Assembly: GCA_910573755.1 (NCBI GenBank)
Contig: CAJTBO010000004.1
Location: 62,001-126,000, forward strand
DNA: 64,000 nt
Origin: Lachnospiraceae bacterium
GTDB lineage: Bacteria > Bacillota > Clostridia > Lachnospirales > Lachnospiraceae
Direction of reading: 5' to 3'
Part shown: positions 3,370 to 42,042 of the stretch, piece by piece
Position numbering within the stretch: the stretch's first letter is position 1
Layout: each line of letters begins with the position of its first letter
Program-made: the position numbers and the translations under genes
Notes under the pieces: generated by a model
Databases searched by the model: none
Told to the model about the DNA's origin: nothing
The model's input: only the letters and a program-made list of their open reading frames with translations

Positions 3370-4848
3370 TTACCCTTTATACGTGAGCGGTATCTTTACG
3401 ATAAAAGTCGTCCCTTCGTCGGGTATACTCTCCAGCTGAATGGAACCCCTGTGCATCAAAACCGCACTCCTTGTAATCGCAAGCCCGAGGCCTGTTCCGC
3501 CGATCTCCCGGGAATGGGATTTATCCACCCGGTAAAATCTTTCATAAATATGGGCGACCGACTCCTTCGGAATCCCGATACCGGAATCACTGACAGTCAA
3601 TGTAAAGAACTGATGATCCGCATCCAGCACCACCTTGACCCAGCCGTTTTCCTTATTATACTTTATAGCATTTTCCACAAGGTTGGAGATCACAAGAGAT
3701 ATCTTCACCTCATCCACCGTCGCCTTGACCGGGCGGATGCTCTCAAAAGTCACCTCAATATCCCGTTTTCTCGCAATAGGCCGCAGACGCTTTAATATCA
3801 CCTCCGTCAGCTCATTCATGCTGACTTCCGTGATATTCATATCCGTCACCTTTTTATCCATCTTCATCAGAGACAACAAGTCTGTGATGATCTTGTTCTC
3901 CCGGTCAATTTCCTTCGCGATATCCTCCATAAACTCCCTGTACAGCTCCACCGGCACATCTTCCTGCGCAAGCAGGGAATCCGCCAGCACTTTCATGGAA
4001 GTGATCGGTGTCTTCAGCTCATGTGAGACGTTTGACACAAACTCCTGCCTTGACTCATCCAGCACCTTCATCCTGCTGAGCAGTTTATTAAAGGCATCAA
4101 TGATATGTACCGTCTCGGCGTAATCCGGCACACTGATCGCCTGATCGGAAAATCCCTCCGATACCTCATTGATCGCCAGCGTAACCCTGTTTAACGGATT
4201 TACCATGAAATTTGCCAGAAGCAGCGCGAATCCCAGAATGATCAGCAGCATAATAAGCATAAGTATATTCGCCTTATTGCTCAAGATGTCCATCGTCTTA
4301 TGGATCGTATCACAGGAAATGCCGATCAGCATCACACCCCTGACTACCTCTTTTACCTCCTCCGCCCCCGCTTCCGGCTCTCCGATGCCGACCTTCTCCG
4401 AAATGGGGATCGTCATCTCGATATAGCCCAGTTCCGCGTCATAATTGGACATGCTCTCCCCTCTGAAGCATTTTACCACTTCTTCGGATATGATCGTTTT
4501 CCCTTCGCTGATGCCATAGGTATCCTTTATAACCTTCAGATTTCCGGAAATGATCAGAACGCGCCCGCCATACAGATTGGAAAGCTGCTCTAATTCCGCA
4601 TTGATAACAGGAGAGGAGGTATCCTGCAGATAATTGTAGGTGATCAGATGATCGGCTAAGATCCTGAGCTGTGCCTGCACTTCCGAACTCCGCACCGAGA
4701 TGGCGCGGGCCTCGTAGCTCTGTAAGATGCCATACTGCATACAGCAGCCGGGAATAATCCCAGCCAGCAGTATCAGTATGAAAATTCTTGATTTCAGGCT
4801 TCTTAAAGATCTGATTTTTGATTTGAAGTCATCCCAACGATAAAACAT
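3370..4848 (-). CDS. Membrane sensor histidine kinase (PhoR/VicK type)
   Basis: 492 residues from the ATG at 4848; the frame opens further upstream but overlaps the response regulator, and an AGGAG element sits between that regulator's stop and this start. Order: N-terminal transmembrane helix (about 18-38), an extracytoplasmic sensor domain of roughly 140 residues, a second helix (about 195-215), HAMP ('NPLNRVTLAINEVSEGF'), HisKA with the phospho-accepting His in 'FVSNVSHELKTPI', and HATPase_c with N box, 'DSGIGIP' and 'GTGLGLAI'. It autophosphorylates and passes phosphate to the response regulator encoded just upstream. Signal unknown. Confidence 0.92.
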   Translation of the reverse strand: MFYRWDDFKSKIRSLRSLKSRIFILILLAGIIPGCCMQYGILQSYEARAISVRSSEVQAQLRILADHLITYNYLQDTSSPVINAELEQLSNLYGGRVLIISGNLKVIKDTYGISEGKTIISEEVVKCFRGESMSNYDAELGYIEMTIPISEKVGIGEPEAGAEEVKEVVRGVMLIGISCDTIHKTMDILSNKANILMLIMLLIILGFALLLANFMVNPLNRVTLAINEVSEGFSDQAISVPDYAETVHIIDAFNKLLSRMKVLDESRQEFVSNVSHELKTPITSMKVLADSLLAQEDVPVELYREFMEDIAKEIDRENKIITDLLSLMKMDKKVTDMNITEVSMNELTEVILKRLRPIARKRDIEVTFESIRPVKATVDEVKISLVISNLVENAIKYNKENGWVKVVLDADHQFFTLTVSDSGIGIPKESVAHIYERFYRVDKSHSREIGGTGLGLAITRSAVLMHRGSIQLESIPDEGTTFIVKIPLTYKG

Positions 4849-4867
4849 CCGCTTGTTTCCCTGCTCC

Positions 4868-5557
4868 TTACTCTTTGAAGTAGTAGCCCACGCCCCACTT
4901 GGTCTGCACAAACTTTGGCTCGCTGGGACTGTTTTCTATTTTCTCGCGCAGACGCCTTACATGCACATCCACAGTCCGCACATCTCCCGGATAATCCACT
5001 CCCCAGACAGCTTTCAGCAGATTCTCCCTGCTGTACACCTTGCCCGGATTTGACATCAGAAGTTCCAGCACCTCAAACTCTTTGGATGTCAGATTGATCT
5101 CCCGGTCTCCGATATATACCCGGCGGTCTTCCCGGTTCACCCGCATATCACCGCTTTCCAGCATCGCACTTTTATCGTCTTTAACATCCTTCGGCGCAGT
5201 CCGGCGCATAATGGCTTTCAGCCGTGCCTTTACTTCGAGAATGTTAAAGGGCTTCGTGATATAATCGTCCGCACCGTACTCCAGTCCCAGAATCTTATCC
5301 ATATCATCGCCCTTTGCGGTCAGCATCACCACCGGCACGCCGGAAAATTCCCGGATCTGCTGACAGACCTCAACCCCGGTCAGCTTCGGCAGCATCACAT
5401 CCAGCAATATAATGTCATATGTATTATTCCTTGCCTTTTCCAGCGCTTCCTCGCCGTCGTAGGCACAGTCCACTTCCATACCGTCCTGTTCCAAACTGAA
5501 CCGGATCCCTTTTACGATCAGTTTTTCATCGTCTACAACCAAAACCTTCTTCGCCAT
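4868..5557 (-). CDS. OmpR/PhoB-family response regulator
   Basis: 229 residues from the ATG at 5557, which gives the canonical start MAKKVLVVDDEK; the longer open frame upstream is repeat-containing leader. Receiver domain residues 1-120 with acidic pocket DDE, phospho-Asp in 'YDIILLDVMLP', Thr in 'MLTAKG' and Lys in 'YITKPFN'; winged-helix DNA-binding domain at the C-terminus ending 'TKWGVGYYFKE'. A DNA-binding partner of the sensor kinase that follows 19 bp downstream. Resembles WalR/PhoP-type regulators, but the target genes cannot be told from the sequence. Confidence 0.93.
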   Translation of the reverse strand: MAKKVLVVDDEKLIVKGIRFSLEQDGMEVDCAYDGEEALEKARNNTYDIILLDVMLPKLTGVEVCQQIREFSGVPVVMLTAKGDDMDKILGLEYGADDYITKPFNILEVKARLKAIMRRTAPKDVKDDKSAMLESGDMRVNREDRRVYIGDREINLTSKEFEVLELLMSNPGKVYSRENLLKAVWGVDYPGDVRTVDVHVRRLREKIENSPSEPKFVQTKWGVGYYFKE

Positions 5558-5639
5558 ATCCTGCCTCTCATATTCATTATGTCTCAGCGACAGTTCGATC
5601 TTTGCCGGATCTCTGTCTCTCCTGCCGTAAATCGTTTTC

Positions 5640-5770
5640 TGCTTCCTTCTGTCTCTCCGAATCCGCCGCAGATGCACTCTGCGGGCTCCTTTATCTGCCT
5701 CAGATGCATTCCGCATTCTCTCTTTATCCGCTTCAGGCGTACTCCGCAGGCTCCCTCTATCCGTCCCCGC
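5640..5770 (-). repeat. Degenerate ~33-bp repeats in comEA-response regulator intercistronic gap
   Basis: The 219-bp gap between the comEA stop and the response-regulator start holds about three imperfect 33-bp units (plus strand, each starting near GCAGATGCA/TCAGATGCA/TCAGGCGTA). A 63-codon frame crosses them (5584-5775) but encodes only repeated RIK/CG residues. One unit includes GTGCATCTGCGGCGG, close to the 3' motif of the intercistronic hairpin family seen at 9 kb and 61 kb. Confidence 0.5.
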
Positions 5771-5776
5771 GCCATC

Positions 5777-6679
5777 CTACTCTACGGTCAGATATTCCTC
5801 CATCCTTGCGTACATTTTCTCTCCTATGCCGGAAACCTGCATGATATCCTCTTTCTTCTGAAAACCGCCCTGTTTCTCCCTGTACTCAATGATCGCCTTC
5901 GCACGCCCTTCTCCGATACCGGGCAGCGCACAGAGCCCCGCCATATCTGCCGTGTTGATATTGACAAGTCCGCCTCCGGCACTTTCAGCGCTTTCCTTCT
6001 CTGCCGCAGGCGCTTCCGGAACCGTATAATAATGATGCTCCGTTTCTTTGCCGCTTTCACCGGACTGTCCGCTTTTATATTCCGCCGTCTCTCTCTCCCG
6101 GATCACCTGCAAGGTCGGGATCTCCAGTCTGCTCCCGTCCGCAAGAAGCGCCGCCATGTTCAGATAATCCTGACAGGCATCCTCCGAAAAACCGCCTGCC
6201 GCCTCCACCGCCTCATAAAAACGGCTTCCCTCCGGCATCCCGTAAACTCCCGGCTTTACCACAGCGCCGCAGACATGGACATAAATCATTTCCGTTTCTT
6301 CCGCATTGCCTGCTGCAGCCATCTGCCCCGTGCCCTGTGCATCCGCACTGCCGCTCTCTGCTCCTGCGCTTTTGCCTGCACCTTCGTCCGCGCCCTCTCC
6401 GGTTTCCCCGGCGGCTTTATCCGCGGCGCCTGCTTCTGCATCCCCGCCGCTGTCCGAAGTGTTTTCCGCAGCGTTCCCGCCGTCCTGTTTCCCGTCTGCT
6501 TCCCCGTCACTCTCCGTACCGGGAAAAGCACCGGTGCCCTCCTGCCTCAGTTCGGAAAGCAGCCTGCTGTCAGTTCCGCAGCCCGCCAACAGGCACACAA
6601 CGCCCAGAAAGCATGCCGCTGCCAATAAGCCTGTCCGCAGGCTTTCTTCCAATCGTATTATCTTATGTTGTAATTTCAT
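5777..6679 (-). CDS. comEA: ComEA DNA receptor (SLBB + helix-hairpin-helix)
   Basis: 300 residues from the ATG at 6679, preceded by AAAGGA; an upstream open extension lacks coding character. The N-terminus is a lipoprotein/anchor signal ending in the lipobox LAGC, then a long Ala/Gly/Glu-rich linker (about residues 40-125), an SLBB domain ('IYVHVCGAVVKPGVYGM'), a second short linker and a C-terminal tandem helix-hairpin-helix domain ('VNINTADMAGLCALPGIGEGRAKAI' region). ComEA binds incoming double-stranded DNA at the cell surface and hands it to ComEC. First gene of the minus-strand competence operon. Confidence 0.93.
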   Translation of the reverse strand: MKLQHKIIRLEESLRTGLLAAACFLGVVCLLAGCGTDSRLLSELRQEGTGAFPGTESDGEADGKQDGGNAAENTSDSGGDAEAGAADKAAGETGEGADEGAGKSAGAESGSADAQGTGQMAAAGNAEETEMIYVHVCGAVVKPGVYGMPEGSRFYEAVEAAGGFSEDACQDYLNMAALLADGSRLEIPTLQVIRERETAEYKSGQSGESGKETEHHYYTVPEAPAAEKESAESAGGGLVNINTADMAGLCALPGIGEGRAKAIIEYREKQGGFQKKEDIMQVSGIGEKMYARMEEYLTVE

Positions 6680-6852
6680 TCTTTTTCCTTTCCGCATTTT
6701 CGCTGTAAGGGAAATGTACAATATCAAACCTGTCATGCCTTTTATTTCATCTTGCACAATTCCCGCTTTACGTTTCATGCCCTGATTGGACATTCTGATC
6801 TCTCTGCGGAAAAGAAGCCCCTCCGCCGCAGCCCGAAACCGCAGCATAAATT

Positions 6853-6881
6853 TATTGTATGTCAAAGCCCGCTTTTTTACA
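6853..6881 (-). promoter_or_regulatory. Sigma-A-type promoter for the comEA operon
   Basis: On the minus strand TTGTAA and TACAAT are separated by exactly 17 bp, about 170 bp upstream of the comEA start and immediately after the end of the DMT gene. This would give comEA its own transcript with a long leader. Confidence 0.55.
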
Positions 6882-6887
6882 AGTGCT

Positions 6888-7316
6888 TTATTCCCATTTG
6901 AAAATAATAATTCCGACAATGGCAAGCGCCATCCCGATCATCTTCTTAAACTCAAACTGCTGCTTTTCCGCGCCGAAAATACCAAACAGCTCGATCAGAT
7001 AAGCCACCAGGATCTGCGCCACAACAATAAACAGCACCGCTTTGGCAGGCCCTAAACTTTTCATGCTCTGGATCACCGTCCAGGTAATCGCAGCCCCCAT
7101 CACGCCGCCAAGAAGCATATACTTCGGCTCTACCTTTGCCAGTTCCATAAAAGAATGCCGCTCCATCGCCGCCCATGCCCCAAGACAGACAAGCAGCGCC
7201 GTAAACTGTACGAAGGCATTGGCGGTCCATACCCCCGTCTGGTCTGTCACTTTCGTATTAAAAACACCCTGAATGCTCATCAGGGCGCCTGAAATGACCG
7301 CAATAATCATACCCAT
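6888..7316 (-). CDS. DMT-superfamily exporter, YdcZ/DUF606 type
   Basis: 142 residues with four to five hydrophobic helices: 1-20, 33-52, 66-86, 90-110 and 122-140. Sequence features such as 'ISGALMSIQGVFNTKV' at the N-terminus and 'GMALAIVGIIIFKWE' at the C-terminus match the half-size DMT transporters of the YdcZ/DUF606 family, which work as dimers in the membrane. Substrate unknown. The start codon lies in one arm of a perfect 14-bp inverted repeat (see separate entry), which suggests translational control. No functional partner is adjacent. Confidence 0.8.
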   Translation of the reverse strand: MGMIIAVISGALMSIQGVFNTKVTDQTGVWTANAFVQFTALLVCLGAWAAMERHSFMELAKVEPKYMLLGGVMGAAITWTVIQSMKSLGPAKAVLFIVVAQILVAYLIELFGIFGAEKQQFEFKKMIGMALAIVGIIIFKWE

Positions 7317-7363
7317 ACTGAAAATCCCCCTTTTCTTTGTTTCACAGTTATTTTCAGTATGGG
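7312..7363 (-). promoter_or_regulatory. Start-codon hairpin (14-bp perfect inverted repeat) of the YdcZ-type gene
   Basis: CCCATACTGAAAAT at 7312-7325 is repeated in inverse orientation at 7350-7363 with a 24-nt spacer. In the minus-strand transcript the second arm contains the AUG (7316) and the GGGGG ribosome-binding tract sits at the edge of the loop. The hairpin would sequester the start codon. A TATAAT at 7399-7404 (minus) could be the -10 box. Confidence 0.7.
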
Positions 7364-7445
7364 CAGTTTTTATAATTCTATTCCGCTATTGATCCCATAT
7401 TATACCCATCATATCCCGCCCCAAAAATGACAGCGGATTATAAAC

Positions 7446-7492
7446 AAAAATCAGGCAAGCCCTCCCCGCATGGAAAACTCTCCTGATTTTTT
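7446..7492 (-). terminator. Intrinsic terminator after the solute-binding protein gene
   Basis: AAAAATCAGG and CCTGATTTTT form a 10-bp stem with flanking T/A tracts, so it can act in both directions. It lies 19 bp past the stop of the minus-strand gene at 7511 and ends the arginine/solute-binding transcript. Confidence 0.8.
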
Positions 7493-7510
7493 ATTATTGC
7501 CCGTCTCCGC

Positions 7511-9013
7511 TTACTCCTCCGTAAACGCTTCTTCCTCCAGCACTTCCTCCACCGGCAGTTCAATATACTCCTCCGTATATTCCTCGCCCGTCACCTGACT
7601 CATTATCTGCTCGGAAAGACCTTTTAACAGGGCGTTCACATCTCCGCCCTCCCAGATATTCGTAAAGGCGATCTCCATCTGCACCCAGAAGTTTCCAGTG
7701 GTCATCATCTTCGGAATCGGCATGGATTCATGATACGAGCCGATAAACGTATAATTCTCATCATGCTCCGGAAAACCGTATACCGGCATCTTGCCTGTGC
7801 TTTCCTGCAGTTTCAATCCGTTTGTCCAGTCATTGATCAAAAACCACGCAAAATCGTTTGCCTGTTCTTTGAATTCCGTATAACCGTTTATCGCAACACA
7901 GGTAGTGATAGATAAAGAACGGCTCTTCAATTCCTCCGTCATATCCGGCATACTGTAAAAACCATACTCATAGGCAAAGCTTCCATCCTCCTTTGCCTGT
8001 GCCATACGGTTTACGGCTTCCGTCCCCGCCACGGTAAATACGATCTTCCCGTCCAGAAAATCCTGCATGACGCTTTCATAATCTACATCCCTTGTCTCAA
8101 TGGAAAAGAACTGGTTCAGGTTCTGAAAAGTTGTCAGGCACTGCAGCGTCTCCAGATTATAAATATCGATCCGGTCCGGGTTATCTCCGTTTTCTCCGCC
8201 CACGATCAAATGGTCGCCGGCAAAACTGTAATTGTACAAAATATCCGACACATCCCACTTAAAGACAGCCTCCACCTGTTCCGGCGCATTGTAGGAATCC
8301 GCAAACTCCTCCAGTTCCGCTATCGTATCAGGCAGACATTCCCATACACGCTCAGCGATCTCCTCCTCCGAAAACTCATGTAAAGCCTCCTCACCGGAAG
8401 CCTCCTCTTCCACATTGCCCTCGTCAGCCTCCGCCTGCGCTGCCTCTCCCGCCGCCTGATCTGCCTCCGCCTCCAGCTGCAGCCTTGCATAATCCTCCAG
8501 ATATGACTTATTATAAAGCAGGGCGCATGCCTCATAATAAAAAGGATAGGCAGCCACTTTCCCGTCATAGGTCACCGCCGCCTCTGCGCCGCTGTTTTCA
8601 TATTCATCGACCCGAAACATATCATGATGCGTGATCTCTGTGGCAAGCCCCGCCAGATATGCCTTTTCCAGACAATCATTGGTGATCAGATACAGATCCG
8701 GCCCCGGCCTCTCGCTCCGTCCCAGAGACGCCTCATTGACAGCCTCCACATACTCGCTGTCGTCCACAAGCACCGCCTCCACACGGATATCGTTCTGCTC
8801 ATTATAGGCAACCACAGCCGCATTTAAATAATCCGTCAGGCTTTCATCCGTATACCACAGCCGCAGCGTATCCTTTTTTCTTCTCAAAAAGTTTTCCTGC
8901 TGCGCCTCTTCCTGTTCGGTCTTCATCTGCATCCCGCTCTTTCCAACACCGAACACACCTGCCAAAAGACAGATACTTAAAAGCACCGCATAAACTCTTT
9001 TTTTATAACTCAT
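7511..9013 (-). CDS. Extracellular solute-binding protein (family 1 type), orphan
   Basis: 500 residues from the ATG at 9013 (MSYKKRVYAV; GAGAGGA upstream). The N-terminus is a signal/anchor helix (about residues 5-25) without a lipobox Cys. The mature part reads like ABC solute-binding proteins of the sugar type: 'LRLWYTDESLTDYLNAAVVAYNEQ', 'GPDLYLITND', 'YPFYYEACALLYNKSYLEDY'. An acidic insertion (Glu/Ala-rich, about residues 180-215) interrupts it. No permease or ATPase gene is adjacent; it is the last gene of the argC-argD transcript, separated from argD by the 108-bp structured repeat. Ligand unknown. Confidence 0.78.
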   Translation of the reverse strand: MSYKKRVYAVLLSICLLAGVFGVGKSGMQMKTEQEEAQQENFLRRKKDTLRLWYTDESLTDYLNAAVVAYNEQNDIRVEAVLVDDSEYVEAVNEASLGRSERPGPDLYLITNDCLEKAYLAGLATEITHHDMFRVDEYENSGAEAAVTYDGKVAAYPFYYEACALLYNKSYLEDYARLQLEAEADQAAGEAAQAEADEGNVEEEASGEEALHEFSEEEIAERVWECLPDTIAELEEFADSYNAPEQVEAVFKWDVSDILYNYSFAGDHLIVGGENGDNPDRIDIYNLETLQCLTTFQNLNQFFSIETRDVDYESVMQDFLDGKIVFTVAGTEAVNRMAQAKEDGSFAYEYGFYSMPDMTEELKSRSLSITTCVAINGYTEFKEQANDFAWFLINDWTNGLKLQESTGKMPVYGFPEHDENYTFIGSYHESMPIPKMMTTGNFWVQMEIAFTNIWEGGDVNALLKGLSEQIMSQVTGEEYTEEYIELPVEEVLEEEAFTEE

Positions 9014-32931: not shown

Positions 32932-34266
32932 TTATTTATTCTCGTAGTATCGCAGGTTTTTAGTCCGTCCTTTTTTAATCAGCACGCCCTCGTCAGTTAG
33001 TTCTCGCAAAAGCAGGATTGCAGTAGATTGGGACACACCCAGTTCCATTTCTACATCACTACGAACAATAAAACCTTTACTGCGACACAGTTCCAAAACA
33101 GTATTAATTCGTTCTTCCTTTTTTGTCGCACTGGTAGTTCCACCCGTTCTAAGGATATTTTGAACTTTTTGTTCTTCTGCATGGAAGTTTGTATTGGGAA
33201 GCGTAATCTTAAAAGCATTACTTGTTGTTTCGATCACAGGTTTCACAACATAATCATCGTAACATTCCTTAATCTTAAGAATCCCTGTGCCATATGCTTC
33301 AATCAATCTCAGACGATAAAAAATATTCGCTAAATGCTGATTGCGCAACGCGGACACTCCCAGCATCACGTCATCCAATGCAATACCTTTCACCAAACCA
33401 CCAATGCTTACAAATTCAATTCGGTCTTCAAAAATACTGATAAGCGTAGCACCGCTAAAAGAATAGTCTCGATGGACGATTGCATTCAGTAGTGCCTCAC
33501 GGATTGCTTCCGTGGGATAATCTCTCATGTCTAACCGGTCCAGTCCTGAGAATTCTGCACGGGTACGATTGTAACGATCAATATAATTGAAAGCTTCCTC
33601 CATCTGATTTAAAAGGGAACCCGACAATTCCTGTCGATCCCTGAATACAGATTTCTTACTCCCCTCAAAAGCAGCCAGTTTGATCATATGTGTACACTGT
33701 TCAGACAGCAAAAATGCCAGATTCGTGTACATACCATCTTCGCCAATCAGGTGAAGTGAACGCATCTGAGTTCTTCCAAACTCTACTTTCCGTTTACTAA
33801 AGAAATCGACAGCTTTGTTAAAAGTAAGATGCTGATCGAGAGAGCGAGCCGCCTCATAACTGTCACCACTGGTATCCTTGATCATATTCAAGATAGCGGT
33901 ATCTGTTGCCGGAACTGTCGATGCTCCCTGACGAACATAAACACCCTCCGGACGAATTCCTTTTCCTTGCAGATAATACGGTCTTGCCGTACCGCGCTGG
34001 ACAATTACACATACAATTGCCTTTTCGTCCATTACATCATTACGGCATTCCACAAACATAGTAATATCTGGCCGCACAGCATCTCTGATTGCATTGGTTA
34101 CACGCAACATAGTATCATCAACATTACCGACACCACAAGCTGTTCCATCATCGTTCACCCCGATATAAAGTGTACCACCATCACAGTTTGCAAATGCAAC
34201 AATAGTATTTTTTATATCCTCAACATATTCTCGCTTGAATTCGGTTGTTTTATTTTCTACGAACAC
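32932..34266 (-). CDS. AlbA_2/Schlafen-type ATP-binding regulator with winged helix
   Basis: 444 residues. I place the start at the GTG at 34266, 7 nt after GGAGG; the frame continues six codons up to a TTG. N-terminal AlbA_2 (Schlafen AAA_4) domain: 'NKTTEFKREYVEDIKNTIVA', 'FANCDGGTLYIGVNDDG'. Middle: GHKL-like domain of RecG-C type ('PTEAIREALLNAIVHRDYSF', 'EAYGTGILKIKECY'). C-terminal winged helix ('MELGVSQSTAILLLRELTDEG'). Such proteins are annotated as putative transcriptional regulators and are frequent in mobile and defence islands. AT-rich like its neighbours, it lies upstream of the NurA-like fragment and about 600 bp downstream of the large NTPase. Confidence 0.85.
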   Translation of the reverse strand: MFVENKTTEFKREYVEDIKNTIVAFANCDGGTLYIGVNDDGTACGVGNVDDTMLRVTNAIRDAVRPDITMFVECRNDVMDEKAIVCVIVQRGTARPYYLQGKGIRPEGVYVRQGASTVPATDTAILNMIKDTSGDSYEAARSLDQHLTFNKAVDFFSKRKVEFGRTQMRSLHLIGEDGMYTNLAFLLSEQCTHMIKLAAFEGSKKSVFRDRQELSGSLLNQMEEAFNYIDRYNRTRAEFSGLDRLDMRDYPTEAIREALLNAIVHRDYSFSGATLISIFEDRIEFVSIGGLVKGIALDDVMLGVSALRNQHLANIFYRLRLIEAYGTGILKIKECYDDYVVKPVIETTSNAFKITLPNTNFHAEEQKVQNILRTGGTTSATKKEERINTVLELCRSKGFIVRSDVEMELGVSQSTAILLLRELTDEGVLIKKGRTKNLRYYENK

Positions 34267-34284
34267 AAAATATCCTCCAACCAA

Positions 34285-34879
34285 TTCTAATCATTTTTAA
34301 ATCTAATAATTATTATAATCATTTTTTTATTATTTACAAGTAGAATCTGATTTTTTGTGAGAAAGTAAGCCAATTTTCTTTATGATATTGCACACATTTA
34401 GTTGACTCTTTATGCTTAAATATTTATAACACTCTAAAAGAACCAATGGTACAAGTCACAATGGCAAAAATATATCATAAAAGCACTTTATTCGGCACCA
34501 TATACGAAGAACAAAGTGCTTATTTCCCTAAAAATCTACTCTCTTTTACACAGGCAAACTATTTTCAACACAAAGCGCCCCCCGCGTATGTCAAGTTAAT
34601 GTCACAAACTTTTTTCACTTTTTTGAATGAAAATCGCTGAAACCCGCATAACCTCGTGGGGCGTATGGTTCGCTAATGCTAAGTTAGGGCAAAATTGACG
34701 GTGAATTAGTGTCAAGTGGCTAATCCAAAATTACTTTGCGAAAAATTTTTGACACTATTTCAAAGTACATCTAATCACGCAAAATCCAGACTCTGTATTC
34801 TAAATAAACAACGAGGGAACACTGCTTAACAACTATATTAATCAGTTATTTTGCGATGCTCCCTACAAAGAAATACTTT
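34285..34879. other. AT-rich spacer with possible IS-end debris
   Basis: No convincing gene. The sequence near 34579-34600 (CGCCCCCCGCGTATG) and its imperfect inverse near 34645-34664 (CATAACCTCGTGGGGCG) form an inverted pair, and TGTCAA/TTGACA words recur (34589, 34710, 34748), reminiscent of the multiple-repeat ends of IS21-type elements. There is no transposase. A 64-codon plus frame at 34446-34640 is AT-driven and lacks a ribosome site. Confidence 0.3.
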
Positions 34880-37800
34880 TTATTTGCGAACACTAATCAC
34901 AGAATTGTCCAAAGCCATACTCCCCTGGAAACTGTATAGCATTTTAAATTTCACTGTTTCACCTGGTCTATTTTGTGGAAATAAATGTTGCGTATTTACA
35001 TTAAAATAAACGGGTATACCTTTACAATCTATCTGTGGTTTTCTGGATCTTAATTTTCCACTGTCAACAATTCCCTCTAATATCATAGCTTTTTCTCTGA
35101 CATTCTCATCTATACAGGTCACTACCATTAAGTCCTTAAGTTGTGTTCCTTGTCCGGTCAACACCCTTCTTGGAATATTATTTCCTTTAAACATAGACGT
35201 TAGCGAGTTCATTTTCCTCACAATATCTCGAATACTTACTGAATAACTGCTATGTCCCCCTAATGCCAAGAGCGAATCAATCAAAAAGAGATAATAATAT
35301 AGTTCTAATATTTCAGAGTCTCTTTCTATCCATCCTCGAAGTTTAATATCTTTCTCCATCAAATAGTTGTAGTCTCCATCCTGATGTACCATAGTAATTA
35401 GTTCAAACCAATCATTTAAATCAGAATAACGGTACATATAATCTAAGTTCTTTTCCATATAATCTACGCATTGTTCAAATTCCTTTTTTTCTATATCTTC
35501 TTTTTGGCGATGAAGCATTGCTTGAACCCATAGGCTTCGATCAATAACCAACTTCCCTTTGTTTTTCTCTCGTTGAATCTGATACGCCCAATAATTAATA
35601 GTTTCTTCTAAATTCAGTAACAGCAGTTCAACCTTGCTTCCAATTTCCAAAAGTTTATCATCCATATTGCCTTTGTCGATGATAAATACTTCATTAGAGC
35701 GAATTGTACGACACAAAGCCAGCGCACGTTCGTAATATTTATGATATTCGCTTTTTTCATTTTTAATAATAATCTTATAGTCAGAATGCGCGTTTTTTTG
35801 CACCCCAAAATCCACTAACATTATGCAGAGTTCAATATCCGATATATATCCAGCCTGACTTTTATTTTTTCTTGAAAATTCATAATATTTGGAAGCTTCG
35901 TCAGCATATTGCAATATCTCAACTTCTTTGGATTCTTTCTCGCCCTCTGCAGCTTGTTTATATTGAGATATTAAAAATCTTATATGTTGTCTTATTCTTG
36001 TCGCCAGAATATGGTATAAAACTTCATCTTCCTTTTCAGCAATTTTGACAGCATTACGCGCATGCTCCATTCCTTTCAATGAATTGCGAGCTATAATCCC
36101 ATAATATCGACCATAATGCGCTTCAAAATGAGGATTATCAGGATAAGCTTCTGTCAATTTTTCAAATATACGTCCAATCAAATATACTCTGGTTTGCAAG
36201 TTATCTATTTCTTCACGCAAATTATCTACAATAACTCCAAAGTATCGTTTTCCTTCTACTTCTATCAATTCATCCTTATTTTTTGTAATAAAAAGAATCC
36301 CCAGAAGATTTATTATGTATGTGCTATTTTTTGTCTCCGGCCTTGCACAAAATGCAATCAAATCACAAATACAATCTACCAAATTACTATAAAATTGTGT
36401 ATTAGTATTGCTATTTCTTTTTAATAATTCATCTATAATTTGTCGTGAAAACTGTGGATGCTTTATCTTCGAAAAAATTCCATTGACTTTTTCTTCAAAA
36501 ACAAATAATTTATCCGAGACAATTTCACCATTAGTTCCATTAAACAAATAATATCTTTTGTCATTGCCATATTTAAATTTTTCTTCGTGCCTTTCAGTAA
36601 AAAAGTCTATCTTTAGCATTTCTCCAGCATATTCGTCAATAATAGCTGCATATAATAGTTCTTTCTTTTGTGGATCACTTAAATCTTTCAAGAAATTATG
36701 AATATAGCTTTTAGTTCCTTTATATTCATCCTCAAAAGCATATAACGACATAATTAACGGCATTCGATCTCTCAATCTATCACTACTTGATACAATAAAT
36801 TCAATGTCTGTTTTACGTTCTTCTTTTGACCGTTTTATATTATGTTCATCCACTTGTTCCATCAACTCAAACAGTTGTTTCTTCATATTTCTAAGTGTAT
36901 CATCTCGCAGTTCAGCGATTACGCATATAGAAGATACCTGTATCCCTTGACGATGGACATAAATGAAATCATGTACTAAGGATAACGCATCAATAGCATC
37001 CTTTAATTCTAAACATTGTTCAAAAGACAAGTCACCACTATCAGCACAGATACAAATAGGTACCTTATCACAAGCTAAATAAAACCTCTCGATTTCTGCT
37101 GCAGTTTGCGTTAAAGAATACTGCTCCAGCATAATTGTTGGCTGTCTTTTACTTCTTTCATACGCATACATTCTCAAAAAAGTACTTCCCCCGGCTCCCG
37201 GCTCATGAAGGATGACCTTCAACGGACTTTTTACTGCACCCAATGGTTCTTTATGAGTATGCAGAACATCATAATACTCGGTCCATTCAACAGGGAACTG
37301 ATGTTGCACACCATACCAACTAAGCTTTGTCTCTCCCAAATAAAACTTCATTTTATTAACTTTGTCATAATCATTTTCTTCTCTTTTAGAAATGTCAAGA
37401 TCTAAAACAGTCAACGTATTATACACCCCAGTATCTATTTTACGGGGTATTCCACGTACTGGAACCTTATATTCTGTTTCACTCCTCTGTTCTAAAGTTA
37501 TAATATTTAGCTTTATATAATTAGCCAAATCAGATATTTTCACATCATAATATGAATACAATTCTTCACCTTGAATTGTTTTTAACTTTTCTTGTCCGTG
37601 TAAGACATTATTGCTGAGAGAAACAATATCTATATTGTTTCTCTCACATTGGCCCTGATATTCATCAAAAAAGTCCAATAAGAGTTCTCCCGTTCTCTCG
37701 GCATATGTTTTATTTAAAACAAGTATTTTAAGAGGCATGTCCACCTTTTGATGATATTCCTCTATCAATTTTTGAAAATTCCTTCTAGCAATCCTTCTCC

Positions 37801-38755
37801 ACTGATTATCATTACACACCAAATATTGAGGTTCCTCCTGCCTACCGTTTGGAAAAACCCAAAAAGTATCAATAACAGATATATCAAATTTGTTAGTTGC
37901 TGATGGGGTAAGAATAATTGGACTTTTTCTACACCCCATATATGCCTTCAATAAACCACTCTGCTGAGAAGAAATATCAAAGTCAATTACCATTGCCCAC
38001 GGCAAAGAAGCCAATATTTCTAGCTCAGATTGAGATAGTTCCATATTATCAACCATCAACACATATTTGTATATAGAATGCGGAGTCCATGCATTGAACC
38101 GCTTATCAATTTCATGGATACCTGAATAAATGGTAATTCCATATTTCTTAATAGCGCAATTATCCCCTACATATCTTGTTACCATTCCTTCTATATGTGG
38201 AAAAATCTGTCCACAAATCTGAAGCAACTGTGCATCAGCTGAATAATCAAATTTATGCTTATTATTATTGTGAGCATCACCTGCATAATTCTGTAAAAGA
38301 ACTGTATCTATTTCAGTTTTGGGTATGAGCACTGGTGTACTGGGAAGACGAGATGAAATCTGATTCCCATTCCCATCGAAAACCTGGAGTTGTGGATTCG
38401 CATATTCTGCCATCCATTCGCATAATGTTTTAATAGTTAATCTTGTATTAAATAAAGAAGATTTCGAACCTTTATCTAAGGGATATACTACTTGTTGTTC
38501 AAAGTCATTAAACGTCATACTTCCATCTTGTGTCTTTTCATAATATGTCTTAAAAATTACATATTTCATAGATTTTTCATATATTTCATATAGACTTTCC
38601 CCAATAGCAACTAGCTTTCTTAAATACTCATCAGTTAAAGTATGATTTCTACAATAATTATAAACATCATTATAATCATCTACCGTATTATTGTATTCTC
38701 TAATGATTTCACATTTTCCAATATTGATTCTATCTATAGCATCTTGCGTATTCAA
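34880..38755 (-). CDS. Large P-loop protein, SAMD9-like predicted STAND NTPase
   Basis: 1291 residues from a TTG with AGGAGG about 9 nt upstream. Visible parts: helical N-terminus (1-170); an alpha/beta region with 'LASLPWAMVIDFDISSQ' (about 249-265); P-loop NTPase with Walker A 'HEPGAGGST' (517-525; Gly-Gly-Ser-Thr in place of the usual GKST/T) and a Walker B-like 'VPICICADSGD' (565-575); a long helical, TPR-like region (about 830-1160, 'AHYGRYYGIIARNSLKGMEHA'); and a C-terminal beta-rich module ('AMILEGIVDSGKLR', 'IPVYFNVNTQHLF') resembling an OB-fold. This order (alpha/beta unit, unusual GGST/GGTT P-loop, TPR, OB-fold) recalls SAMD9-family proteins and their bacterial relatives, predicted STAND NTPases. 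AT-rich, single gene. Defence function is inference. Confidence 0.7.
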   Translation of the reverse strand: MNTQDAIDRINIGKCEIIREYNNTVDDYNDVYNYCRNHTLTDEYLRKLVAIGESLYEIYEKSMKYVIFKTYYEKTQDGSMTFNDFEQQVVYPLDKGSKSSLFNTRLTIKTLCEWMAEYANPQLQVFDGNGNQISSRLPSTPVLIPKTEIDTVLLQNYAGDAHNNNKHKFDYSADAQLLQICGQIFPHIEGMVTRYVGDNCAIKKYGITIYSGIHEIDKRFNAWTPHSIYKYVLMVDNMELSQSELEILASLPWAMVIDFDISSQQSGLLKAYMGCRKSPIILTPSATNKFDISVIDTFWVFPNGRQEEPQYLVCNDNQWRRIARRNFQKLIEEYHQKVDMPLKILVLNKTYAERTGELLLDFFDEYQGQCERNNIDIVSLSNNVLHGQEKLKTIQGEELYSYYDVKISDLANYIKLNIITLEQRSETEYKVPVRGIPRKIDTGVYNTLTVLDLDISKREENDYDKVNKMKFYLGETKLSWYGVQHQFPVEWTEYYDVLHTHKEPLGAVKSPLKVILHEPGAGGSTFLRMYAYERSKRQPTIMLEQYSLTQTAAEIERFYLACDKVPICICADSGDLSFEQCLELKDAIDALSLVHDFIYVHRQGIQVSSICVIAELRDDTLRNMKKQLFELMEQVDEHNIKRSKEERKTDIEFIVSSSDRLRDRMPLIMSLYAFEDEYKGTKSYIHNFLKDLSDPQKKELLYAAIIDEYAGEMLKIDFFTERHEEKFKYGNDKRYYLFNGTNGEIVSDKLFVFEEKVNGIFSKIKHPQFSRQIIDELLKRNSNTNTQFYSNLVDCICDLIAFCARPETKNSTYIINLLGILFITKNKDELIEVEGKRYFGVIVDNLREEIDNLQTRVYLIGRIFEKLTEAYPDNPHFEAHYGRYYGIIARNSLKGMEHARNAVKIAEKEDEVLYHILATRIRQHIRFLISQYKQAAEGEKESKEVEILQYADEASKYYEFSRKNKSQAGYISDIELCIMLVDFGVQKNAHSDYKIIIKNEKSEYHKYYERALALCRTIRSNEVFIIDKGNMDDKLLEIGSKVELLLLNLEETINYWAYQIQREKNKGKLVIDRSLWVQAMLHRQKEDIEKKEFEQCVDYMEKNLDYMYRYSDLNDWFELITMVHQDGDYNYLMEKDIKLRGWIERDSEILELYYYLFLIDSLLALGGHSSYSVSIRDIVRKMNSLTSMFKGNNIPRRVLTGQGTQLKDLMVVTCIDENVREKAMILEGIVDSGKLRSRKPQIDCKGIPVYFNVNTQHLFPQNRPGETVKFKMLYSFQGSMALDNSVISVRK

Positions 38756-39966: not shown

Positions 39967-42042
39967 ATTTTAAATAATCCTTTATACAAGCCTTTTGCGG
40001 CTTATTTTTTTGTCAAATTTTAAAATAGTTACGTTGTACGGAGTTGTATATAGTTGACTTCTACATTAAAATCGGTTATAATAAAGTATGAAACTTAATT
40101 ATGATAAAAAATCAAAAGATCCCACATATTTTATTCAGAAAGGATTCCGAAACGGTTCCAAGACAACAACCAAAAATGTTGCACGGATCGGAAAACATTC
40201 TGAGCTGCTTATGATCACCGATGACCCTCTTTCCTATGCAAGGGAACAGGTCGCCAGATATAACCGGGAAGAAAAAAATGGCAGGGTTTCTATGGAGGTT
40301 AAAATTGATTTTAACGAGAAAATTAAAATCTCTAACGTCCCTGCTTCCTCCAGCACCAGCTTAAACATAGGCTACTTGTTTCTCCAGCAGCTTTACCACC
40401 GGCTTGGCATCAGCCCGTTTTTTAAGGAAATCACATCAGCTTCCAGAATTACTTTTGACCCTGACCTTGTGAACCGTTTCCTGACCTATGACCGTATCCT
40501 GTATCCCGGCTCAAAGCTTAACAGCCTCAAACACCTTAACCGTTATTATGAGCAGCCTTCTTTCGACTACCAGCACATCCACCGTACGCTGGATATTATG
40601 GCAGGCTGTTACGATGAATACATTTCCCATCTGTATGAAACCAGCTGCAGTATCGTCAGGAGGAACACCTCAGTATGCTATTATGACTGCACCAACTTCT
40701 ACTTTGAAACGGAATCGCCGGATGAAGATTATCTTGACGAAGTTACGGGTGAACTGGTAAAAGGCTTCCGTAAATATGGGATTTCCAAACAGCACCAGCC
40801 GGCGCCGCTGGTGGAAATGGGACTGTTCATGGACGCGGACGGGATCCCCCTTACGATGTGCCTCACATCCGGATCTGATAATGAACAGACCACAGTCGTC
40901 CCGCTGGAAAAGAAACTCTCAAAAATGCTGCATAACAGAAAGTTCATTTACTGCGCCGATGCAGGACTTGGTTCCTTAAACATAAGGAATTTCAACTCCA
41001 TGGGGGGAAGGGCATTTATCGTTACCCAGTCAGTAAAAAAGCTCTCTGCCGGTTTAAAACAGGCTGTTTTTAACGACTATGACTACCGCCTTTTATCCGA
41101 CGGCTCCCCTGTATCCATCCAGGCATTGAAAGAGTTTGACAGATCAGATCCCGGCCTGCGGCATCTCTATCTTGACAGGGCATATAAGACAATCCCCGCT
41201 GACAAAGCTGTGGATCTGGGATTTTATGAAGAAAAGACCTTAAAGAATGGCAAAAAGCAGAGAATAAAATCAACTGCTATGGTTCCCCAGTCTATTATCA
41301 TTACCTTTTCACGTAAAATGATGGAATATCAGAGAACTGTCAGGAACCGACAGATAGAACGTGCGAAACAGCTGTTAAAAAACATGGATCCGGAAACCTA
41401 CAAGAAAGGACCTAATGATGTAACACGATTTATTAAGAAGATTGAAAACATTTCTGATGAAGGAAAGGTGAAGAAATCATACGCCATTGACCAGGCGGCT
41501 ATCGATGAGGAAGAAAAATATGACGGCTACTATGCCATAGCCACAAACCTTGATGAAAGCGCAGAAGAGATTGTAAATATCAGTTCACAACGCTATAAAA
41601 TCGAGGACTGTTTCAGGATCATGAAAACAGATTTTTCCGGAAGGCCCGTGTTCCACCACACAAGGGAGCACATCACGGCACACTTCATGATCTGCTATAC
41701 GGCACTTTTGATTTACCGTCTGCTGGAGAAGAAACTGGATGATAAGGGGACGCATTTTACCATTGGGAATATCATAGAAACGCTGCAAAACATGAATGTA
41801 ATCAATATTGGGGATATGTGTTACAAATCCACATATACGGGATCGCAGGTACTTACTGCCTTAAACGCAGTATTTGATCTGCAGTTAGACAGGCAGTATT
41901 ACCAGCCGAAGGAGCTGAATAAAAAGATCAAAAAAATTTCGGGATAAAGTTTCCGTACAACAAACCTTAGAAAACAGAAGTGGCTGAAGTTCCCACAAAC
42001 AGGGAGATTCAGCCATTTTGCTTTTCGATAAGTGTTTAAAAC
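39941..42042 (+). mobile_element. IS1634-family insertion sequence
   Basis: About 2.1 kb bounded by 13-bp inverted repeats GTTTTAAACACTT (39941-39953) and AAGTGTTTAAAAC (42030-42042). A second, internal inverted pair GTTGTACGGA (40033-40042) and TCCGTACAAC (41952-41961) hugs the transposase and could be the real ends instead. No clear target duplication is visible. Intact transposase, with an outward-facing terminator at 41981-42015 (TGGCTGAA/TTCAGCCA stem). Probably still active. Confidence 0.8.
40088..41947 (+). CDS. IS1634-family transposase
   Basis: 619 residues, full length. DDE transposase of the IS4-like supergroup: first Asp in 'SVCYYDCTNFYFET', second in 'FIYCADAGLGSLNIRNF', and the Glu in the 'SSQRYKIEDCFRIMKTDF' Y-(2)-R-x-x-E-like region. 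The N-terminus binds the ends. Promoter-like TTGACT...TATAAT lies just upstream (about 40052-40085). Uninterrupted, so transposition-competent as far as can be seen. Confidence 0.93.
   Translation: MKLNYDKKSKDPTYFIQKGFRNGSKTTTKNVARIGKHSELLMITDDPLSYAREQVARYNREEKNGRVSMEVKIDFNEKIKISNVPASSSTSLNIGYLFLQQLYHRLGISPFFKEITSASRITFDPDLVNRFLTYDRILYPGSKLNSLKHLNRYYEQPSFDYQHIHRTLDIMAGCYDEYISHLYETSCSIVRRNTSVCYYDCTNFYFETESPDEDYLDEVTGELVKGFRKYGISKQHQPAPLVEMGLFMDADGIPLTMCLTSGSDNEQTTVVPLEKKLSKMLHNRKFIYCADAGLGSLNIRNFNSMGGRAFIVTQSVKKLSAGLKQAVFNDYDYRLLSDGSPVSIQALKEFDRSDPGLRHLYLDRAYKTIPADKAVDLGFYEEKTLKNGKKQRIKSTAMVPQSIIITFSRKMMEYQRTVRNRQIERAKQLLKNMDPETYKKGPNDVTRFIKKIENISDEGKVKKSYAIDQAAIDEEEKYDGYYAIATNLDESAEEIVNISSQRYKIEDCFRIMKTDFSGRPVFHHTREHITAHFMICYTALLIYRLLEKKLDDKGTHFTIGNIIETLQNMNVINIGDMCYKSTYTGSQVLTALNAVFDLQLDRQYYQPKELNKKIKKISG

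Follow-up and report, generated by a model that had tools for sequence, protein, structure and literature searches.

How should a large, GC-poor gene be understood when its product resembles an animal antiviral factor in its middle and something else at its front? Such a gene lies in a 64,000-nucleotide stretch of Lachnospiraceae bacterium DNA (GenBank assembly GCA_910573755.1, contig CAJTBO010000004.1, positions 62,001 to 126,000; hereafter “the window”). An earlier note, made from the letters alone, had taken its product for a SAMD9-like nucleoside triphosphatase (NTPase) of the STAND class, and had proposed that this protein cooperates with a nearby AlbA_2 gene. In this report, we found that the protein, judged by its sequence, belongs to the SAMD9 family. 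We consider it somewhat better than an even bet (a probability of roughly 0.55) that it is a bacterial SAMD9 protein that carries a HEPN-like domain in place of the N-terminal AlbA_2 nuclease of its animal counterparts, and that it acts in an RNA-cutting, abortive form of defense. The mobile gene of this gut-type bacterium encodes a large relative of SAMD9, an antiviral protein of humans, whose usual front RNA-cutting domain appears to have given way to a helical, RNase-like one. The features of the locus are collected in Table 1.

Relationship to the SAMD9 family

Scans of domain libraries gave almost nothing, and the family was therefore assembled stepwise from genomes. Ten members were aligned: the window protein and those of loci L008, L006, L007, L058, L059, L012, L016, L017 and L060. 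With the exception of L008, these relatives are 14-24% identical to the window protein; that of L006, for instance, is 24% identical to it across 1117 aligned columns (E = 1e-67). A profile of the ten sequences, the window protein included, was compared with 177,635 distinct sequences of the Protein Data Bank (PDB). Human SAMD9 accounts for each of the top six matches (E = 4.6e-26 to 8.5e-14), and the first match to anything else, at rank seven, is to an unrelated protein (E = 0.081). The match spans residues 264-1030 of the 1450-residue SAMD9 chain, that is, from the SIR2-like region to the TPR. Further, the L012 protein by itself matches SAMD9 in the PDB (E = 3.3e-7). A blind fold search points weakly in the same direction. 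When 350,542 chains were ranked against a model of residues 700-1291, built from the window, L008 and L009 sequences only and of low confidence (mean predicted local distance difference test score, pLDDT, of 44.7), human SAMD9 structures took the first four places (E = 9.9e-4 to 3.2e-3; template-modeling scores of 0.19-0.24). The assignment made by the earlier note is thus borne out by sequence comparison and, more faintly, by fold.

An approximate SAMD9-type sequence, not drawn from a database, was also used as a target. Its letters differ in places from those of the PDB chain, and comparisons with it are therefore supporting only. A family profile (A3) finds this approximate stretch at E = 2.7e-26; the controls were 500 shuffles and a single reversed copy, the best of which reached 0.18. 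As single queries, six of seven members find it as well (the window protein at E = 1.6e-6), L007 being the one that does not. Five segments (SIR2-like, NTPase, middle, TPR and OB) match the approximate sequence in order, with E-values of 2.1e-8, 5.1e-13, 2.6e-6, 1.2e-4 and 8.8e-8, respectively, for a one-sequence database; the reversed copy did no better than 0.096. By these alignments, the SIR2-like, P-loop, TPR-like and OB-like parts of the window protein follow the SAMD9 order. A FastTree tree of the core, unrooted and based on 1010 columns, pairs L012 with L016 (0.99) and L017 with L060 (0.996), and it joins the six members that lack a motif arginine discussed below (0.968). The approximate SAMD9 sequence groups with L017 and L060 (0.968); therefore, the members with a HEPN-like domain are not the nearest relatives of SAMD9 in this small set.

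The nucleotide-binding region carries marks of the family. Mekhedov et al. (PMC5445408) describe a P-loop with GG[TS] instead of GK[TS], together with an upstream His, as traits of SAMD9 proteins. None of the ten members keeps the Walker A Lys (GGST in the window protein; Ala in L012), and the upstream His is found in seven (H517 in the window protein), with Tyr in the other three. The odd Walker A and the Walker B-like motif that the earlier note had read from the letters are both present, the latter as ICICADSGD with D572. A Walker A with a conserved Lys, by which classical STAND NTPases and Avs proteins are recognized, is absent from the window protein. The Pfam model nSTAND_NTPase5 matches the L006 protein above its cut-off (E = 1.6e-8) and the window protein below it (E = 0.011). 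Another Pfam model, PF25199, was tried as a search handle and abandoned because it mostly reports any P-loop: it matched 240 of 245 genomes and 14 of 14 controls (13 and 0, respectively, above the cut-off).

The earlier note also described a TPR-like middle and a beta-rich C-terminus. Helical hairpins are predicted around residues 860-930 (pLDDT 67-80) and strands, at low confidence, at the C-terminus; neither TPR nor OB has a Pfam match in the protein. The PDB match to SAMD9 extends into the TPR region. In the PDB profile search, the last stretch of the protein lines up with the end of SAMD9 but is not significant alone (independent E-value of 500); by hhalign, it matches the approximate sequence better, at the E-value given above. 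In some relatives, the C-terminus extends further and has weak S1 or cold-shock matches (S1-like in L006, E = 0.012; L016, E = 0.046); the window protein stops short of this stretch. A tblastn search for a second OB stretch beyond the stop codon of the window gene gave chance matches only (E ≥ 0.16).

The SIR2-like region raises the possibility that the effector lies in the core itself, depleting NAD as in Avs5, while the N-terminal helical domain merely regulates or dimerizes the protein. All ten members align over this region, irrespective of the kind of N-terminus they carry; further, Avs5, which in its predicted fold is similar to SAMD9, needs its SIR2 effector for defense (PMC12931631). 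We nevertheless think this unlikely, because the region sits in mid-protein and not at the N-terminal effector position, because fragments of neither the window protein nor the L012 protein have a SIR2 match in Pfam, and because a review of SAMD9 names a tRNase, not SIR2, as the effector (PMC13245274).

A candidate HEPN domain at the N-terminus

The match to SAMD9 begins at chain residue 264, presumably just past the AlbA_2 region. The AlbA domain, which we take to be the nuclease of SAMD9 and SAMD9L, has no Pfam match in any of the seven members scanned for it (all but L058, L059 and L060). Instead, the N-terminal domain is helical in eight members and kinase-like in two: the L017 N-terminus matches Pfam TCAD9 (6.8e-14), and that of L060 is kinase-like by eye.

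Seven divergent helical N-termini were aligned; L008, whose contig begins within the domain, was omitted. No more than five columns, namely L, E, K, N and H, are invariant, and four of these residues spell Ex3K and Nx3H in all seven sequences. The hallmark of HEPN domains is Rx4-6H, in which the R is followed by a polar residue, in most cases N, D or H; an Ex3[KR] often lies upstream, in helix 2 (Anantharaman et al., PMC3710099). Fuller N-terminal alignments are mutually consistent in where they place the motifs of the window protein. Helices are predicted, at low confidence, at residues 3-37, 42-77 and 171-196, with residue 60 inside the second. A model of residues 1-760, used for its helix pattern only because its mean pLDDT is 39, sets the Nx3H motif just ahead of helix 171-196, as a HEPN domain needs (pLDDT < 50 there). 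We infer the HEPN identity of the domain at the level of these motifs. The complete RNx3H is found only in L012 (RNDLTH) and L016 (RNQLTH), two of the eight members with the helical domain; RN...H arises in 2% of shuffles of the N-terminal sequence of L012.

In the other six of the eight, H, N, I, T or S stands in place of the motif Arg, and HEPN families that lack the motif have been described (Anantharaman et al., PMC3710099). The domain of the window’s clade might then have lost catalysis along with the Arg and serve as an adaptor or nucleic-acid binder. We doubt this, because the N and the H are invariant and a Lys immediately precedes the motif His in all six Arg-less members (NxxKH). The same authors, moreover, describe a HEPN family that has the H and no R, and in which other basic residues may substitute (PMC3710099).

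Selection and mobility

The open reading frame (ORF) lies exactly where the earlier note had placed it, and it is a real gene, more than a chance ORF. On inspection of the sequence, AGGAGG, a good ribosome-binding site, stands directly upstream of the TTG start. The gene is present as a single copy in its genome of origin, and its GC content is 33.0%, versus 48.5% for the window. A copy 98% identical occurs in another Lachnospiraceae metagenome-assembled genome (L008; JAAWBT010000095.1), on a contig that begins inside the gene. The two copies differ by 37 synonymous and 28 non-synonymous changes in 1202 codons. Counted simply, the ratio of non-synonymous to synonymous rates (dN/dS) is about 0.18, and the protein is therefore maintained under purifying selection. 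Long relatives at 14-25% identity also exist.

A genome of another genus (L005) shares 1584 bp with the window at 99.8% DNA identity (three mismatches). The match takes in most of an Rpn-like gene as well as the first ~169 codons of the STAND gene. This identity points to a recent transfer between genera and, together with the low GC content, supports the horizontal arrival suggested earlier. The Rpn-like gene lies upstream of the STAND gene in the window as in L005, where the copy (6706-7629) is longer, at 307 residues; by comparison, that of the window looks 5'-truncated. At positions 8127-8657, L005 carries a broken STAND copy that is near-identical for ~169 codons and then continues as unrelated sequence.

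An S8 peptidase gene, or the 3' remnant of one, adjoins the family gene in the window (34546-34600), in L008 (3909-3947) and in L005 (4504-6255), and in the distant member L017 such a gene (4716-6431) lies about 1 kb upstream. Neither gene nor remnant was found in L006, L007, L012, L016, L058, L059 or L060. This S8 (subtilase-type) peptidase site is a possible insertion hot spot.

Distribution and gene neighborhoods

Genomes were counted at E ≤ 0.001, in sets that overlap. The STAND protein matches four of 299 family-level genomes, its own genome and one truncated copy included, and one of nine genomes of the same genus, which is its own. Two further sets, each with the own genome included, gave 2 of 398 and 3 of 392; in others, the matches numbered 2 of 196, neither of them new, 3 of 218, two of them new, and 2 of 45, again with nothing new. 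Two family loci are titled Lachnospiraceae, and the remaining ones are from the same phylum. Phages, viral contigs and plasmids yielded no homolog; the plasmids were searched with full proteins and with the N-terminal part of L016.

Defense genes are found near four of eight distant loci. L006 has GajA (E = 9.5e-224) and GajB of Gabija, AIPR/AbiU and a DpnII piece; L058 has a type II methyltransferase and DndB/DpdB; L059 has Abi_C, a HEPN-type gene and DUF3800; and L060 has LmuB and PIN_12. For L016 and L017, one neighbor each was scanned, and the neighbors of L007 and L012 were read by eye. The L017 neighbor, the S8 peptidase, matches the PADLOC model “subtilase” (3.1e-10 over 76 residues) and was not counted as defense. 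In L005, PADLOC identifies two genes further along as NsnA/NsnB. A PIN_12 gene stands directly upstream of or near two members (L060, 2113-3330; L006, 5849-7129) and is a possible partner. L059 and L060 belong to one genome (G1311), in which a member with a HEPN-like N-terminus and one with a kinase-like N-terminus thus occur on different contigs.

The four distant loci with no recognized defense neighbor would suit a host signal-transduction protein that plays no role in defense, and signaling roles have been suggested for bacterial members (Mekhedov et al., PMC5445408). We regard this explanation as improbable in light of the patchy occurrence (4 of 299), the recent transfer between genera, the TCAD9 domain of one relative and the defense genes near the other loci.

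The neighboring AlbA_2 gene

The earlier note had suggested that the STAND protein and a separate AlbA_2 gene 600 bp away form a split SAMD9-type module. That gene exists (Pfam E = 2.4e-21). Between the window and L008, DNA is matched from 38489 down to 34553. The transferred segment that they share stops at ~34582, ~300 bp short of the start of the AlbA_2 gene (34284). In the window and in L008, the shared segment stops at the same sequence and is followed by each host’s own S8-peptidase 3' end, and that of L008 matches the L005 peptidase over its final 13 residues. The conservation of the neighborhood, which had been proposed as a check, was also examined: by tblastn at E ≤ 1, the AlbA_2 protein has no homolog in any of 11 other family loci (L007 and L009 being one contig, and L008 extending only 474 bp downstream). 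The AlbA_2 gene is, in turn, common in genomes that lack the STAND gene. Its protein matches 73 of 120 family-level genomes (its own included), many of the matches partial and distant; the match in G107 is 97% identical, and this genome, by its handle among the 299, is not one of the four with the STAND protein. The two genes also differ in GC content at third codon positions (0.35 against 0.26).

The AlbA_2 gene matches Argonaute-associated PADLOC models (best E = 3.5e-12) and may therefore have a conflict role of its own. These matches, and the adjacency of the two genes on one strand, are what can be said for a split module, which is not supported and in our estimation highly improbable, being already contradicted by the end of the shared segment between the genes, the 0 of 11 loci, the frequency of the AlbA_2 gene where the STAND gene is missing and the difference in third-position GC.

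Proposed mechanism

We favor a SAMD9 protein with a HEPN-like effector of its own. Human SAMD9 and SAMD9L are virus-activated tRNases and have been modeled as autoinhibited STAND-type sensors (PMC13245274). An effector-swapped bacterial SAMD9 would, by analogy, probably be an RNase that arrests growth on infection. The resting protein would be closed, and its TPR/OB half would sense that the cell is infected, probably through RNA or a product of the phage. The P-loop, which has no Lys, may then bind nucleotide without canonical hydrolysis, whereupon the protein would open and perhaps oligomerize. HEPN domains act in pairs; the HEPN-like domains could do so here and cut RNA, possibly tRNA as in the animal proteins. 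Such cutting would stop translation and abort the infection.

A number of results weigh against this reading. Neither the window protein alone nor a three-sequence profile retrieves SAMD9 from the PDB at E ≤ 1. The window protein has no match in PADLOC or NCBIfam; three relatives yield only Csx16 in PADLOC (E = 0.017), and among the four window proteins scanned with PADLOC, only that of the AlbA_2 gene matches. Fragments of the window protein lack any TPR, OB or SIR2 match in Pfam. The N-terminal domain has no HEPN match in Pfam or the PDB, where weak unrelated matches alone were seen, and the model that contains it is of the low confidence given above. The motif Arg is missing in the window’s clade, and N...H alone arises in 30% of shuffles of the first 200 residues of the window protein. 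Finally, the four of eight distant loci with a recognized defense neighbor, and the four without, are a raw count with no background rate.

A wider proposal is tentative. Bacterial SAMD9 could be a platform for antiphage defense that exchanges its effectors, among them HEPN-like and TCAD9/kinase-like domains and, in animals, AlbA_2, and that is ancestral to animal SAMD9, and its HEPN-like form could include a new type of active site, NxxKH, in which the Lys beside the catalytic His replaces the Arg. With its compact form, candidate RNase domain and nameable catalytic residues, the protein makes an antiphage-RNase role directly testable, and the same is true of the idea that the RNA cutting of SAMD9 was inherited from such a bacterial platform.

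Table 1. Positions of the gene, its parts and its neighbors in the window
Feature	Position	Strand	Remarks
SAMD9-family STAND-like protein gene	34880..38755	-	1291 aa, TTG start
N-terminal ~200-aa helical domain, putatively HEPN-like	38156..38755	-	Invariant residues, predicted helices
EKSMK, candidate HEPN Ex3[KR] motif	38564..38578	-	Residues 60-64
HNNNKH, candidate HEPN RNx3H position	38255..38272	-	Residues 162-167; Arg lost, Lys precedes His
SIR2-like region	37376..38083	-	About residues 225-460; approximate-sequence and PDB-profile alignments
P-loop STAND-like NTPase region	36836..37363	-	About residues 465-640; approximate-sequence and PDB-profile alignments
Walker A HEPGAGGST	37181..37207	-	Residues 517-525; Lys replaced by Gly
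Walker B-like ICICAD	37040..37057	-	Residues 567-572
TPR-like region	35756..36178	-	About residues 860-1000; model, approximate-sequence alignment, fold search
C-terminal OB-like region	34883..35086	-	Residues 1224-1291; approximate-sequence alignment, strands at low confidence
AlbA_2 - HATPase_c_4 gene	32932..34284	-	Pfam AlbA_2 E = 2.4e-21; judged not part of the system
S8 peptidase gene 3' remnant (GALCVENSLPV*)	34546..34581	-	Marks the end of the shared segment
Rpn-like gene, apparently 5'-truncated, common to L005	39253..39966	-	237 aa; TIGR01784 E = 4.9e-4, below cut-off
IS1634-family transposase	40088..41947	+	NCBIfam E = 2.5e-110

Comparison with known systems

Bacterial members of the SAMD9 family have been known since 2017 (Mekhedov et al., PMC5445408). 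A full-text search judged by titles and abstracts, in holdings with few subscription journals and no dedicated bioRxiv collection, turned up no published treatment of a SAMD9 protein with a HEPN architecture; titles and abstracts within the same holdings likewise revealed no experiments on a bacterial member.

The inactive-STAND proteins with HEPN or GT4 effectors described by Kaur et al. (2021, PMC8195603) share with the window protein the combination of a HEPN domain and a STAND module with eroded NTP motifs. Those proteins are, however, part of a two-gene STAND system, and no partner STAND gene was recognized by eye among the ORFs that neighbor the window gene. Avs5 (SIR2-STAND-TPR) has a comparable tripartite STAND plan and, as noted, a predicted fold like that of SAMD9, but its SIR2 effector is N-terminal, its Walker A retains the Lys (GPAGSGKT) and no OB domain was seen in its description (PMC12931631).

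The bacterial SAMD9 proteins with a kinase N-terminus (Mekhedov et al. 2017, PMC5445408) have the same core; L017 and L060 probably belong to this type or one like it, whereas the N-termini of the window’s clade and of L012 and L016 are HEPN-like. Those authors stress actinomycetes, whereas the loci reported here are from Lachnospiraceae or the same phylum. They also note that the N-terminal AlbA_2 has been lost in some family members. With animal SAMD9 and SAMD9L, the window protein has significant sequence homology. It has a SIR2-like region, a P-loop NTPase with Gly for Lys and a TPR-like region in the same order, and a putatively OB-like end. It differs from them in that no SAM or AlbA_2 domain was found in it, and in that a helical, apparently HEPN-like domain occupies the effector position.

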